Below are positions 51,902-63,601 of a stretch of DNA of 64,000 nucleotides, in pieces; the first letter of the stretch is position 1; the number at the start of each line of letters is the position of its first letter. Origin of the DNA: Rhodococcus wratislaviensis (GTDB lineage Bacteria > Actinomycetota > Actinomycetes > Mycobacteriales > Mycobacteriaceae); the NCBI RefSeq assembly GCF_900455735.1, contig NZ_UAUI01000029.1, positions 186,001 through 250,000 on the forward strand, written 5' to 3'. The translations under genes and the position numbers were made by a program. The notes under the pieces were generated by a model. It ran no database searches. It worked only from the letters and a program-made list of their open reading frames with translations, and was not told the DNA's origin.

Positions 51902-51905
<4 letters not shown>
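50841..51905 (-). CDS. iron-siderophore ABC transporter substrate-binding lipoprotein
   Basis: The 354-residue protein has a lipoprotein signal with ATALFAGACSES, the cysteine being the lipid site. The mature part is a FepB/FecB-type class III binding protein (VTLGWGSEDAALSLGVVPVA, YEQIAALNPDVILAVHSG). It would capture the ferric siderophore outside the cell. The ATG overlaps the NRPS stop by 4 bases, coupling uptake to synthesis. No permease or ATPase genes are adjacent, so they must be elsewhere. Confidence 0.9.
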
Positions 51906-58984
<7,079 letters not shown>

Positions 58985-59052: not shown

Positions 59053-59071
59053 TCAGGTTAGCCTAACCACA
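59053..59071. promoter_or_regulatory. IdeR/DtxR-type iron box upstream of the NRPS
   Basis: TCAGGTTAGCCTAACCACA matches the iron-box consensus TTAGGTTAGSCTAACCTAA at 16 of 19 positions, including the full inner palindrome GGTTAGCCTAACC. It lies 69 bp before the NRPS start. Under iron limitation release of IdeR should turn on the NRPS and binding-protein genes. Confidence 0.88.
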
Positions 59072-59145: not shown

Positions 59146-59793
59146 TCAGCCGACTTCGAGCGGCGAAAGCGCGGAGACCAGCGCATCCGTGGTGGTCACC
59201 GAACCGCAGCGCTTCGCCGCGTAGGTGAGGGCCATGAGGTGCTCGTCACGGCTGAAATCCGCGGTCGCGTCGGAGACCAGGAACGGCTGCACGTCCGACA
59301 TGAACGCCTCGGCGGCGCTCAGCATGCAGCCCATGTGCGTGTAGACGCCCGTGACGATCAGCTGGTCGCGGCCGTGGTGGCCGAGCAGCTGCCGGAGGTC
59401 GGTGCGCTGGAACGCCGAATACCGCCATTTGGTCACCTGGATGTCGCCCTCGCGGGGGACGAGCGGCTCGACGACCTCGGTATCGCGACCCGACGTCAGT
59501 CCAGGGCCCCAGAAGTCGGCGAGGATGCCGCGGCGCGACGGGTGCTGGTCGCCCGGCTGCATCGTGTAGATCACGGGAATCCCGGCTTCCGAGCACAGTT
59601 CGCGGATCCGGACCATGTTCGCCATCGCAGTCGACATCGGCTCCGACCGCACGTCGTACGCGTCGATGAAGTAGTTCTGCATGTCGTGGACCAGCAGTGC
59701 GGAACGTCGGGGGTCGAGGCGCCAGGACACCTTCGATTCGGGGACCTCGTGAATCTCCGGGATCGTGTAGGTCGAAATAGGCGGGATAGCCAT
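59146..59793 (-). CDS. isochorismatase without carrier domain
   Basis: The 215-residue protein has the isochorismatase core: Asp in [12 protein letters not shown], Lys in [14 protein letters not shown], and [18 protein letters not shown] around the third active-site position. It cleaves isochorismate to 2,3-dihydro-2,3-dihydroxybenzoate and pyruvate. Unlike EntB it ends at the catalytic domain; the carrier is a free gene 10 kb away. The ATG at 59793 follows AGGAA and is preferred over the GTG at 59805. It has its own IdeR-type box. Confidence 0.92.
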
Positions 59794-59882
59794 ATGGTTC
59801 CTCACTGTCGGTCTTGTCGACGTCTGGGCGTATGCCGCGCGAATCTCGGTGAACGACAGCGCTCCGCCCCACCGCTCGCGCG

Positions 59883-59901
59883 TTCGGTTAGGCTAGCCTT
59901 T
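59883..59901. promoter_or_regulatory. IdeR/DtxR-type iron box upstream of the isochorismatase
   Basis: TTCGGTTAGGCTAGCCTTT matches the iron-box consensus TTAGGTTAGGCTAACCTAA at 15 of 19 positions. It lies 90 bp before the isochorismatase start in the divergent space toward the DUF4178 gene. Confidence 0.82.
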
Positions 59902-60016
59902 GCTACCTGGCTCTGCAATCGCTAGGTGTGTGGGCGCGCGGCGCACAGTAAGGTGACTGACCGGTGGGGGCCGGGCGCCGGTCTCCCGTGCCGGAGCCGC
60001 TGACCAGGAGAGACTG

Positions 60017-60613
60017 TTGACCACGCTGCTGATACTGCTGCTGATCGTCGTCGTGATCGTGGGCATCGTGCTGATCCTGCGGAATCGGGCCGGGAAGAAC
60101 GCCACTCCCGCTGCCCGGGTCGATCCGCTTGCCGACTACCCGGAGGTCTACGACCCGTACAAGATCGGAGTCGGCGACATCATCACGTACGCCGGAATCG
60201 ATCACGTCGTGCGCGGCACCATCACCCTCGACGAAGAGGGATACATCTGGCACGAACACCTCCTCGACGGGTCGACCGGTCAGCGGTGGCTGACCGTCGA
60301 GAACGACGAGGGCAACCTCGACATGACGCTGTGGATGCGCCGCGAGGGCACGGGGCTCGAACCGGACGGTGACGTGATCCTCGACGACAGGGTGCACCGG
60401 CAGATCGAGCGCGGCACCGCCTCGTTCACCGCGGAAGGCACCACCGGGACGGCGCCCCAGGGCATCGTCGACTATGCCGACTACGAGACGGCCGACAAGA
60501 CCGGCCTGCTGTCCTTCGAGCGCTGGGCGCGGACGCAGTCGTGGGAGGTCTCCACGGGCCGCGCCGTCACGCGCGGTGAACTCACCGTGATCCATTCCGG
60601 TCCGCCGCAGTGA
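60017..60613 (+). CDS. DUF4178 protein with N-terminal membrane anchor
   Basis: The 198-residue protein has one N-terminal helix (LLILLLIVVVIVGIVLILR) and a DUF4178 domain of about 140 residues (KIGVGDIITYAGIDHVVRGT, then YIWHEHLLDGSTGQRWLTVE). The domain should lie in the cytosol. Initiation is at TTG 60017 behind AGGAGAGA. It is first of five genes ending in a membrane spermidine synthase, a recurrent set in actinobacteria. The biochemical role of DUF4178 is not established. Confidence 0.85.
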   Translation: MTTLLILLLIVVVIVGIVLILRNRAGKNATPAARVDPLADYPEVYDPYKIGVGDIITYAGIDHVVRGTITLDEEGYIWHEHLLDGSTGQRWLTVENDEGNLDMTLWMRREGTGLEPDGDVILDDRVHRQIERGTASFTAEGTTGTAPQGIVDYADYETADKTGLLSFERWARTQSWEVSTGRAVTRGELTVIHSGPPQ

Positions 60614-61116
60614 CGCTGCACGTCCTCGACATCGAGTCGCGTGATGTGACGGCCGAGGCGCTCGGTCTCGTCGTGAACGCCGAAACACCGCTTCCGCTGG
60701 CCGAACTCACCATCACGCACGGTGACGACCGGGTGACGCTCGCAGTTCTCGGGGCGTCGCACGCGGTGACGGCGTCCGCCGCGGGAAGCCGGATCACCGA
60801 ACAGGTGTCGTGCGATGCGATCCGGGCCGGCGGCAGGCCGCTGCCGGTATCCGACAGCGCGAGCGGATACCGGTTCGACTCGACCACCGACACCGTCGAC
60901 CGCACCCACCTCGAGCAGACCGCCGACTGGCTGCGGCGCCAGGCCACCGAGGTGGACGGGTGGATCTGCGGGACGTTCCCCGGCGACCACACCGCACTGA
61001 CCGCGCTCACCGCGACGCGTGAACATTCCGGCGGATGGGCCTGGCAGACCTGGCATCTGTACCCAGGAGACAAGGGTGGGGTGATCGTGAAAACTCGAAG
61101 CAGGTGGCAGCCGTGA
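60610..61116 (+). CDS. DUF2617 family protein
   Basis: The 168-residue soluble protein matches the DUF2617 pattern, with the WICGTFPGDHTALTALTA segment and a C-terminal WAWQTWHLYPG. No catalytic residues are clear. It begins with GTG overlapping the DUF4178 stop and ends overlapping the DUF4247 start, so all three are coupled. Homologues occur in the same spermidine-synthase-linked operons. Confidence 0.8.
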   Translation: MTLHVLDIESRDVTAEALGLVVNAETPLPLAELTITHGDDRVTLAVLGASHAVTASAAGSRITEQVSCDAIRAGGRPLPVSDSASGYRFDSTTDTVDRTHLEQTADWLRRQATEVDGWICGTFPGDHTALTALTATREHSGGWAWQTWHLYPGDKGGVIVKTRSRWQP

Positions 61117-61526
61117 CCCGGTTCAGTGCGCGCATGCGGCTCGCCCCGATGCTGCTCCTGGTTTTTGCCGCGACCGCGTGCGGAGGCGGTGTCCGCGACT
61201 ACATCGCCGACGCGTACGCCCTGCAGAACACCGCAGGCGACGCGAAGACATACACGTCGAACGACCCGGTGGGGACGACCGTCTCGAACATCGTCGCCGA
61301 GGAGGAACCGGCAGCACGGAAGGCGGACGGCGGCAGCGAATACCTGCGCTACGACGACGACATCGTCACGGTCAGCGCCGGACCGGGTGGCGGGAGCCTC
61401 GTCCGCGTCGAAGACATCGACGGACGCTACCGGAGCGGTGGGTTCGCCTATCTGGGGCCCGGTTTCAACCCCGGTTCGCCTGCGGGCGGCGCCAGCGGCA
61501 GCGGCGGATCCGGGAGCGCGAAATGA
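61113..61526 (+). CDS. DUF4247 lipoprotein
   Basis: The 137-residue product has an export signal with a lipobox-like end LLLVFAATACGGG, so it is probably anchored outside by lipid. The body has the DUF4247 pattern (YLRYDDDIVTVSAGPGGGS, then VEDIDGRYRSGGFAYLGPGF) and ends in a flexible Gly/Ser tail. The GTG at 61113 overlaps the DUF2617 stop. It gives the operon an extracytoplasmic component. Confidence 0.8.
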   Translation: MTRFSARMRLAPMLLLVFAATACGGGVRDYIADAYALQNTAGDAKTYTSNDPVGTTVSNIVAEEEPAARKADGGSEYLRYDDDIVTVSAGPGGGSLVRVEDIDGRYRSGGFAYLGPGFNPGSPAGGASGSGGSGSAK

Positions 61527-61554
61527 CAGAGAACACTCGACTCGGGAGAAGCGC

Positions 61555-62025
61555 GTGAACACCACCTACACGGCGGCAGCAACGGAAATCGGCACGGTCG
61601 ACGTCGGACTGCTCGCCGTCGGCATGCTCGGCACCCTGGCATACTTCGTCATCGGCATCGCCGTCCTCGGAGTCGGCTTCGCGGTACTCGACCTCGCCAC
61701 CCCCGGCAATCTCCGGCACCAGGTGTACGTCGACAAGAACCCCAACGCGGCAATCCTGCTGGCGTCGAACCACCTCGCCCTCGCCGTCGTCGTGGTCACG
61801 GCGATCCTCACCAGCTCCGACGGATTCGCGCAGGGACTGGCCGATTCCGCGGTCTACGGCCTCTTCGGGGTGCTGCTGCAGGTCATCGCGCTGCGCCTGA
61901 TGAATCTGCTGCTGCCGGGGCAACTCGTCGGTCTGGTGGGGAACCCGCAGATGTGCGGTGCCGCGTGGGCGGTCGGTGCGAGCCTCTTCGCCATCGGCCT
62001 CGTGAACGCCGCCGCACTCACCTGA
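61555..62025 (+). CDS. DUF350 membrane protein
   Basis: The 156-residue protein has four hydrophobic helices and the DUF350 conserved loop KNPNAAILLASNHLALAVVV. Relatives include E. coli YjfL. DUF350 proteins often occur with spermidine-synthase-like and DUF4178/DUF4247 genes. It begins with GTG at 61555 and the synthase gene follows after 4 bp. Transport or membrane sensing is a guess only. Confidence 0.82.
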   Translation: MNTTYTAAATEIGTVDVGLLAVGMLGTLAYFVIGIAVLGVGFAVLDLATPGNLRHQVYVDKNPNAAILLASNHLALAVVVVTAILTSSDGFAQGLADSAVYGLFGVLLQVIALRLMNLLLPGQLVGLVGNPQMCGAAWAVGASLFAIGLVNAAALT

Positions 62026-62029
62026 TCTC

Positions 62030-63601
62030 GTGACCACCACAGCGGCAGAGCCGAATTCCTCCACCACCCGCGCGCTCGGCGGGCGGGCCAGGGCGTTCCT
62101 GCTCGCCGCGGTGGCCGCGTGTGCGGCGTGCGGGCTGATCTACGAACTCGCGCTGCTGACACTGTCGGTCAGTCTGACCGGCGGCGGAATCACCCAGACG
62201 TCGCTGATCGTCGCGGGTTTCGTGGCCGCACTCGGGGTGGGTGCCCTCGCCGCCAAGCCGCTCCTCTCCACCGCGGCCGCGTCGTTCGTGGTCGTCGAGA
62301 TCGTTCTCGGACTCGTCGGCGGGTTCAGTGCAGTGACCCTGTACGTGACGTTCACGTTCTTCGGTTCCAGCGCAATCGTTCTGGTACTCGCCACCGCGCT
62401 GATCGGTGTGCTGGTGGGCGCCGAGGTGCCGTTGCTGATGACGCTGCTGCAGTCGGGCCGCAGCGACACCGACGCCGAGAGCACCGGAAAGGTGCTGGCG
62501 AACCTCAACGCCGCCGACTACGCAGGTGCCCTGGTCGGTGGCCTGCTCTGGCCGTTCGTCCTGCTGCCGATCGCCGGGATGATCCGCGGCGCCGCGATCA
62601 CCGGCATCATCAATCTCGTCGCCGCCGCAGTGGTCGCGCTGATCCTGCTGCGGTGGCAGTTGAGTCTGCGCACCCGATTGCTCGCGGTCGTGGCGCTGCT
62701 CGTCGCCGCCGCGTGCATCGCGGTACTGCTGGTGCGCGCCGACGGCATCGAGACCACGTCGCGGCAACGTCTCTACACCGATCCCGTCGTCGCCGCGGAG
62801 AGGTCGCAGTACCAGGAGATCGTCGTCACCGAGCGTGAGGGAGACGTGCGGCTCTTCCTCGACGGCGACCTCCAGTTCTCCAGCATCGACGAACATCGGT
62901 ACACCGAATCCCTGGTGTACCCCGCGATGGCGGACGACCCGAAACGGGTACTGATCCTCGGCGGGGGCGATGGCCTCGCCGCCCGAGAGGTCCTGCGACT
63001 GTCCGGGGTCGAGGAGATCGTGCAGGTGGAACTCGATCCTGCGGTCATCGAACTCGCGAACACCCGGCTGTCCGGGCTGAACCAGGGAGCGCTGCAGAAC
63101 CCGCGCGTGCACGTGGTCCTCGACGATGCGTTCCGGTGGTTGCGCGACGCACCGGACTCGGGATTCGACGCCGTCATCGTGGACCTCCCCGACCCCGACA
63201 CCCCGGCGCTCGGGCGCCTGTACTCCACCGAGTTCTACGGTCTCGCCGCCGCCGCACTGAACCCCGGCGGACTGATGGTGGTGCAGTCGGGAAGCCCCTA
63301 TTCGACGCCGGACGCGTACTGGCGCACCACGTCGACCGTCGCGTCGGCGGGTCTGGCCGTCACGCCGTACCACGTGCTGGTGCCGAGCTTCGGGGACTGG
63401 GGTTACGTCCTTGCCCGGCGCGGACCCGAACCGCCGGCCCTGCGCCTGCCCCACGACGCCCCCGAACTGCGCTTCCTCGACGAGCCGACCCTCGCCGCGT
63501 CCGCGATCTTCCCGCGCGACCGCCCCCGTCGCGAGCTCGAGCCCTCGACCCTCGACCGCCCGCGCATCGTCGACGACATGCGGAAGGGCTACGAGCGCTG
63601 A
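62030..63601 (+). CDS. membrane-fused spermidine synthase-like protein
   Basis: The 523-residue protein has seven or so N-terminal membrane helices (residues 20-230) and a C-terminal polyamine aminopropyltransferase domain. The SAM/dcSAM-binding run VLILGGGDGLAAREVLRL, then VELDPAVIELAN and VIVDLPDPDTPALG, is intact; the Asp of the synthase active site is in VDLPDPD. A soluble spermidine synthase lacks such helices, so the reaction is probably at the membrane. Starts at GTG 62030. It ends the five-gene operon. Confidence 0.87.
   Translation: MTTTAAEPNSSTTRALGGRARAFLLAAVAACAACGLIYELALLTLSVSLTGGGITQTSLIVAGFVAALGVGALAAKPLLSTAAASFVVVEIVLGLVGGFSAVTLYVTFTFFGSSAIVLVLATALIGVLVGAEVPLLMTLLQSGRSDTDAESTGKVLANLNAADYAGALVGGLLWPFVLLPIAGMIRGAAITGIINLVAAAVVALILLRWQLSLRTRLLAVVALLVAAACIAVLLVRADGIETTSRQRLYTDPVVAAERSQYQEIVVTEREGDVRLFLDGDLQFSSIDEHRYTESLVYPAMADDPKRVLILGGGDGLAAREVLRLSGVEEIVQVELDPAVIELANTRLSGLNQGALQNPRVHVVLDDAFRWLRDAPDSGFDAVIVDLPDPDTPALGRLYSTEFYGLAAAALNPGGLMVVQSGSPYSTPDAYWRTTSTVASAGLAVTPYHVLVPSFGDWGYVLARRGPEPPALRLPHDAPELRFLDEPTLAASAIFPRDRPRRELEPSTLDRPRIVDDMRKGYER

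Follow-up and report, generated by a model that had tools for sequence, protein, structure and literature searches.

This analysis concerns an operon of five genes in a 64,000-nucleotide stretch of the Rhodococcus wratislaviensis genome (contig NZ_UAUI01000029.1, positions 186,001 to 250,000), referred to here as the window, and in particular two of its products, namely a small soluble DUF2617 protein and a membrane-anchored, SpeE-type aminopropyltransferase (TM-SpeE). Decarboxylated S-adenosylmethionine (AdoMet) is the donor used by aminopropyltransferases. It was found that nearly all TM-SpeE genomes sampled from the class also have DUF2617, and that the few without it all carry an AdoMet decarboxylase (AdoMetDC, or SpeD). 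The explanation that we favor, with modest confidence, is that DUF2617 supplies TM-SpeE with decarboxylated AdoMet, and that TM-SpeE then aminopropylates a probably membrane-borne acceptor and not free putrescine. Many actinobacteria, mycobacteria included, have a 'spermidine synthase' gene and no known donor-making enzyme; if the proposal is true, this metabolic contradiction is removed, DUF2617 gains a reaction, and anyone looking for the true aminopropylated product would know which donor, enzyme and deletion target to work with.

The operon and the source of its aminopropyl donor

The five co-directional genes span positions 60017-63601 of the window and comprise the following features, with the codons of three DUF2617 residues that are central to the argument.

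60017..60613, + strand: DUF4178 protein, 198 residues, TTG start; Pfam 107.1 bits; N-terminal membrane segment at residues 3-21
60610..61116, + strand: DUF2617 protein, 168 residues, soluble; Pfam 159.5 bits; proposed to be pyruvoyl AdoMet decarboxylase-like
60757..60759, + strand: codon of DUF2617 Ser50, which is proposed to form the pyruvoyl group; invariant across the 109 loci
60811..60813, + strand: codon of DUF2617 Cys68, the proposed catalytic Cys; present in 108 of 109 loci, Tyr in locus L062
61054..61056, + strand: codon of DUF2617 His149 (motif TWHxYP); likewise invariant across the 109 loci
61113..61526, + strand: DUF4247 lipoprotein, 137 residues; Pfam 103.7 bits; lipobox-like ATAC at residues 20-23
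61555..62025, + strand: DUF350 membrane protein, 156 residues; Pfam 79.6 bits; four membrane segments
62030..63601, + strand: TM-SpeE, 523 residues; aminopropyltransferase domain (Asp314, Asp385 and Asp388 kept) preceded by seven membrane segments

All five Pfam matches exceed their curated cut-offs; for TM-SpeE, the Spermine_synth match (PF01564) scored 122.9 bits against a cut-off of 22.9, and the NCBIfam match to polyamine aminopropyltransferase PRK03612 (NF002956) scored 650.5 bits against 472. Membrane segments were assigned by hydropathy, which revealed neither such a segment nor a lipobox-like site in DUF2617. Both gene overlaps, at 60610-60613 and 61113-61116, have the sequence GTGA, and spacers of 28 and 4 bases separate DUF4247 from DUF350 and DUF350 from TM-SpeE, respectively. 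An earlier note on this DNA had listed five genes, the first three overlapping by GTGA, with the same family names and with topologies of a membrane DUF4178, a soluble DUF2617, a lipoprotein, a four-segment DUF350 and a synthase with helices; the coordinates, overlaps, profile matches and hydropathy agree with it throughout. The closest named DUF2617 locus, with 93% identity to that of the window, is from Rhodococcus opacus.

Gene sets of this type have been described in the literature. In the passages available from PMC11237479 (2024), operons of the PSP system contain a spermine/spermidine-like synthase fused to seven transmembrane segments (7TM), along with DUF350, a lipoprotein and DUF4178; in one variant, DUF4247 and DUF2617 replace the CesT/Tir-PspA dyad, and DUF2617 is termed a predicted enzymatic domain. 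The same passages cite Li et al. 2019 for a polyamine-independent role of AdoMetDC. The family content of the window operon is that of the PSP-linked SpeE-7TM operon in its DUF4247/DUF2617 variant. Thus, the gene-neighborhood link to PspA drawn in the earlier note was already published, and its suggestion of aminopropyl transfer onto a non-polyamine target, although plausible, had also been proposed in print there, the envelope acceptor being a putative one. Since both are in those passages, neither the operon nor the general aminopropyl idea is new, and the note's description of the function as undescribed has to be qualified, given that a functional guess is in print too; no reaction was found assigned to DUF2617 in the passages retrieved from the open-licence PMC literature. 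What the note did overlook is that no AdoMetDC is found in the genome and that DUF2617 is a candidate for its replacement.

The window genome (7.78 Mb in 29 contigs, 99.99% complete) gave no match to AdoMetDC (PF02675), and its only PF01564 match is TM-SpeE itself; because no AdoMetDC was found there, TM-SpeE is left without a known donor. The class-2 AdoMetDC (PF01536) was matched in none of 30 genomes, the window's included, and no control genome was positive for it either. The TM-SpeE enzyme looks active, judging by three residues, Asp314, Asp385 and Asp388, which were located by alignment to solved aminopropyltransferases and which we take to be the aspartates that mark these enzymes (donor binding, catalysis). 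Among 67 rows from fuller operons with DUF350, they are kept in 66, 67 and 67, respectively; the corresponding counts for the 38 rows of loci lacking DUF350 are 38, 35 and 32. The AdoMetDC genomes with TM-SpeE retain all three residues (3/3).

Co-occurrence with TM-SpeE and exchange for AdoMetDC

Two genome samples from the window's class were surveyed, the first of 148 genomes and the second of 394, in which the hits of the first recur; TM-SpeE was scored as NF002956 above its cut-off, and AdoMetDC as PF02675. In the smaller sample, DUF2617 was present in 27 genomes and PF02675 in 6. In the larger, DUF2617 was present in 96, TM-SpeE in 97, both in 94, and PF02675 in 18. The TM-SpeE genomes without DUF2617 were G031, G107 and G078 (3 of 97), and PF02675 was found in all three, with its Ser, His and Cys all intact. 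DUF2617 without TM-SpeE over the cut-off was seen in G234, where the adjacent SpeE frame is partial, and in G329, with none in the 12 kb read. A PF02675 match also occurred in 8 of the 94 genomes having both DUF2617 and TM-SpeE. In AdoMetDC of T. maritima, the residues S63, H68 and C83 are essential, as stated in the portion of PMC10407285 available. When the active-site region of seven of these PF02675 matches was inspected, Cys was absent in G018, G112, G261 and G317, and His in G197 and G291, whereas G391 had the residues intact alongside DUF2617 and TM-SpeE. The match in G390 contains an in-frame stop, and this genome gave no hit to a SpeD profile. A viral scan with one SpeD as query found nothing; with an alignment as query, it gave 80 SpeD loci, which served only to build a profile. 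By Fisher's test, p was 0.0011 for any PF02675, 2.7e-5 for an intact triad, and 6.8e-5 if G390 is counted as intact, values that assume independence among genomes, an assumption that does not hold.

It may be added that the PF02675 protein of the Streptomyces-type genomes G112, G018, G261 and G317 (loci L152, L153, L238 and L239) has SASH for ESH and Tyr for the catalytic Cys, residues that make an ordinary AdoMetDC improbable; the Ala-Ser-His of this protein is similar to the one in DUF2617.

In G031, G107 and G078, the operon keeps DUF4178, DUF4247, DUF350 and TM-SpeE, such that DUF2617 alone is gone, and AdoMetDC is located away from the operon, elsewhere in the genome. A TM-SpeE tree of 62 rows, for which long-branch and composition warnings apply mainly to plasmid rows, placed L146 and L147 next to a DUF2617 row (support 97/94) and L148 next to L250 (support 100/99), which is from the same genus and has DUF2617; the branches starred in the tree force at least two changes. 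In this tree, the rows with AdoMetDC fall at two places inside the DUF2617 operons, as two independent switches. Within the genus of G031, 59 genomes revealed DUF2617 in 0, PF02675 in 58, and TM-SpeE over the cut-off in 18; the sole genome without PF02675, G536 (85% complete), carries TM-SpeE. A second SpeE-type match adjoins AdoMetDC in 11 of these 18 TM-SpeE genomes; among the matches listed, the remaining 7 had nothing of the kind except for a 62-bit fragment in G509. In the family of G078 (149 genomes), TM-SpeE passes the cut-off in two, of which one carries DUF2617 and the other AdoMetDC.

As a separate observation on the genus of G031, the AdoMetDC and the soluble SpeE-type match often share one open frame of ~406-416 residues (as in L149, 6828-8048), which looks like a SpeD-SpeE fusion from its sequence; in some of these genomes, this frame adjoins a separate TM-SpeE operon.

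The recurrence of the gene set is beyond chance. In 80 DUF2617 loci retained out of 558 confirmed relatives, some truncated by contig ends, TM-SpeE adjoins DUF2617 in 79 and all five families are present in 37; in the sample of 148 genomes, TM-SpeE was next to DUF2617 at all 29 of 29 places. Nothing of the set but DUF2617 and TM-SpeE was found in 10 of these 29 loci and in 30 of the 80 (TM-SpeE being split over frames in two of the 30), and an obligate machine of five parts was rejected on these counts. The components envisaged in the note are plausible, but to speak of a single five-part machine goes too far, because DUF2617 and TM-SpeE form the most widely kept pair. In L095 (Mycobacterium asiaticum) and L247 (G329), the sequence read around DUF2617 contained no detected TM-SpeE; these copies may be remnants, or DUF2617 may have a second use there.

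In other phyla, TM-SpeE matches were obtained in 11 plasmid records, none of them actinobacterial and some near-duplicates. SpeD lies within 6 kb of TM-SpeE in 8 of the 11 and DUF2617 in 0 of 11; the plasmid search with DUF2617 gave no match at E 1e-3. In three Burkholderia records, SpeD is ~3 kb away on the opposite strand, and in Novosphingobium sp. ES2-1 the run consists of SPFH, DUF4178, DUF4178, a short protein, DUF350, polyamine aminopropyltransferase, a flavin adenine dinucleotide (FAD)-dependent oxidoreductase and speD. The loci without SpeD within 6 kb are two of Tritonibacter and one of Rhodovulum (with a short SpeE frame). Among 14 named control genomes, NF002956 was matched in 10 (1 over the cut-off), of which 8 were positive for PF02675, and Corynebacterium glutamicum and Haloferax volcanii for DUF2617; an eleventh, Lactococcus lactis, was matched through PF01564 and had neither PF02675 nor DUF2617.

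Two of the plasmid loci deserve a further remark. The FAD-dependent oxidoreductase of Novosphingobium (L253, 7247-8863), which is situated between TM-SpeE and speD, could act on an aminopropylated product. In Tritonibacter mobilis (L255, L261), TM-SpeE, DUF4178 genes and DUF350 are present, with neither SpeD nor DUF2617 within 6 kb; Tritonibacter was also absent among the 33 records listed in a plasmid-wide tblastn with SpeD, a search that did not cover its chromosome.

DUF2617 as a candidate decarboxylase, and the alternatives

To compare residues, 109 DUF2617 loci were used, 80 of them selected by patterns containing LGASH or TWH and 29 by Pfam profile only. Gly48, Ala49, Ser50, His51, Glu64, Tyr87, Thr131, Trp145, Thr147, His149, Tyr151 and Pro152 are invariant in 109 of 109, and the single locus that deviates at Cys68, L062, is one in which TM-SpeE is split; Glu64, Cys68, Tyr87 and Thr131 lie in no selection pattern. 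The motifs of DUF2617 occur in the order VLGASH, ExVxC and TWHxYP. The solved class-2 AdoMetDC has VLSES ahead of a strand, then KTCG, and then TIHITPE in the second half, and the T. maritima enzyme has ESHLTIHTWPE and FTCG. In the AlphaFold model of the window DUF2617 (predicted local distance difference test, pLDDT, 94; also 94 for a Streptomyces albus homolog), Ser50 is right before a strand, Cys68 right after the next strand, and His149 inside a strand of the second half. By VIA, the residue after the DUF2617 Ser pairs with the residue after the AdoMetDC pyruvoyl position, in one AdoMetDC entry with the window model and in five entries with the other model. A loose three-motif pattern, devised after viewing both families, matched 105 of 109 DUF2617 frames and only 1 of 7,997 other frames (1 of 3,490 at 160 residues or more), many of these other frames not being genes. 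As judged from sequence, DUF2617 has the set of Ser, Cys and His for AdoMetDC self-processing and catalysis, a correspondence that we infer.

In the proposed mechanism, DUF2617 would cleave itself before Ser50, generating a pyruvoyl group, and would decarboxylate AdoMet, thus taking over the job of AdoMetDC. The acceptor to which the 7TM-anchored SpeE domain would then pass the aminopropyl group would sit in or at the membrane and might be a lipid or a partner protein. DUF350, DUF4178 and the DUF4247 lipoprotein probably present, sense or tune the acceptor, because they were not found in the loci with DUF2617 and TM-SpeE only, and they would be dispensable in some lineages. In a broader and more tentative proposal, DUF2617 may constitute a third, so far unrecognised form of AdoMetDC, about half the size of the eukaryotic one and found in actinobacteria and an archaeon, which would feed a dedicated, envelope-modifying membrane aminopropyltransferase; species regarded as lacking the pathway would then produce decarboxylated AdoMet after all, though for a purpose other than spermidine.

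Several results weigh against a decarboxylase. The conservation of Ser50 and His149 is partly due to how the loci were selected. The sequence similarity between DUF2617 and AdoMetDC is not significant, with hhalign E values of 0.08-0.17 and equally high scores in 16 of 200 shuffles; on this account, DUF2617 is called AdoMetDC-like here and is not filed as a member of the family. The fold scores are weak as well: by VIA with the window model, AdoMetDC appeared only at rank 45, and with the other model EagT6, DcrB and PsbP-type folds had Z as high as that of AdoMetDC. Foldseek against PDB and BFVD returned nothing at E <= 0.001 and no AdoMetDC among the 50 matches listed, which is no evidence for its absence. 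It is to be noted that class 1 and class 2 AdoMetDC themselves share little to no sequence similarity, according to the part of PMC10407285 available.

The equal standing of the EagT6, DcrB and PsbP-type folds would also suit a DUF2617 that is an accessory or chaperone-like stand-in for the CesT/Tir-PspA dyad, the donor coming from another enzyme and the SpeD pattern being lineage history. The dyad position given to DUF4247 and DUF2617 in the passages of PMC11237479 points the same way, and the evidence within the class for an exchange with SpeD comes from two lineages. Nonetheless, we consider this unlikely, since the same passages label DUF2617 a predicted enzymatic domain, its Ser, His, Glu and Cys are conserved, and two separate losses removed DUF2617 alone where DUF4178, DUF4247 and DUF350 stayed and AdoMetDC is present. 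It is more doubtful still that TM-SpeE is an ordinary membrane-anchored spermidine synthase whose product is free spermidine, the donor being supplied by DUF2617 or from another source. Its NCBIfam name is indeed that of a polyamine aminopropyltransferase, and spermine synthesis is reported in Streptomyces and Mycobacterium in an introduction (PMC11841054, in part), but M. smegmatis is stated to be without detectable polyamines (PMC8503589, in part), the presence of the operon in that species not having been established here. The second SpeE-type match beside AdoMetDC in 11 of the 18 TM-SpeE genomes in the genus of G031 looks as if spermidine were made elsewhere. Moreover, fusions of the 7TM-SpeE type reportedly do not substitute for spermidine synthase, a result from 2019 ascribed to Li and colleagues. 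From the M. smegmatis statement and this reported result, it is argued that the product is not free spermidine. Least probable of all is the direct use of AdoMet by TM-SpeE to move a 3-amino-3-carboxypropyl (or methyl) group, with DUF2617 acting elsewhere, perhaps in decarboxylating the product: AdoMet-using relatives of spermidine synthase exist and the window genome has no known source of decarboxylated AdoMet, but TM-SpeE retains the aminopropyltransferase aspartates, and SpeD is near its relatives from other phyla in 8 of 11 plasmid loci.

Neighboring genes and comparison with known systems

A palindrome resembling an iron box, presumably of the IdeR/DtxR type, is found at 59053-59071 (3 mismatches to the pattern, 0 expected), upstream of a nonribosomal peptide synthetase (NRPS) gene at 51902-58984. 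A weaker palindrome of similar kind at ~59884-59904, beyond the limit of 3 mismatches, lies between an isochorismatase-domain gene (59146-59805, - strand, 126.3 bits) and the operon. Iron control of the NRPS gene, the operon or both is possible from these sites. The isochorismatase-domain gene stands beside the large NRPS and seems to belong to a siderophore cluster that is oriented divergently to the operon.

With respect to known enzymes, TM-SpeE shares its catalytic domain and aspartates with soluble spermidine synthases and related aminopropyltransferases (7xif, 1uir, 3anx), but differs in its seven N-terminal membrane segments and its constant neighbor DUF2617. AdoMetDC of class 1b (the T. 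maritima type) and class 2 (the eukaryotic type) has the same partner, SpeE, as is proposed for DUF2617, and the conserved Ser, Cys and His of DUF2617 follow one another as they do in the class-2 enzyme. DUF2617 has Ala where AdoMetDC has Glu before the Ser, and its 168 residues contrast with 334-354 in the human AdoMetDC proenzyme chains listed. The neofunctionalised SpeD ornithine/arginine decarboxylases described in the available part of PMC10407285 offer a precedent for a change of substrate in the AdoMetDC fold; sequence similarity led to those enzymes but does not lead to DUF2617, which occurs together with SpeE in the absence of SpeD. Lastly, the examples CCP45394.1 (DUF2617) and CCP45395.1 (DUF4247) of PMC11237479 represent the same variant as the window operon; its available passages give no reaction for DUF2617 and make no mention of an exchange with AdoMetDC. 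The operon is of a known kind, and what is new is the exchange between DUF2617 and AdoMetDC, together with the AdoMetDC-like conserved residues of DUF2617.

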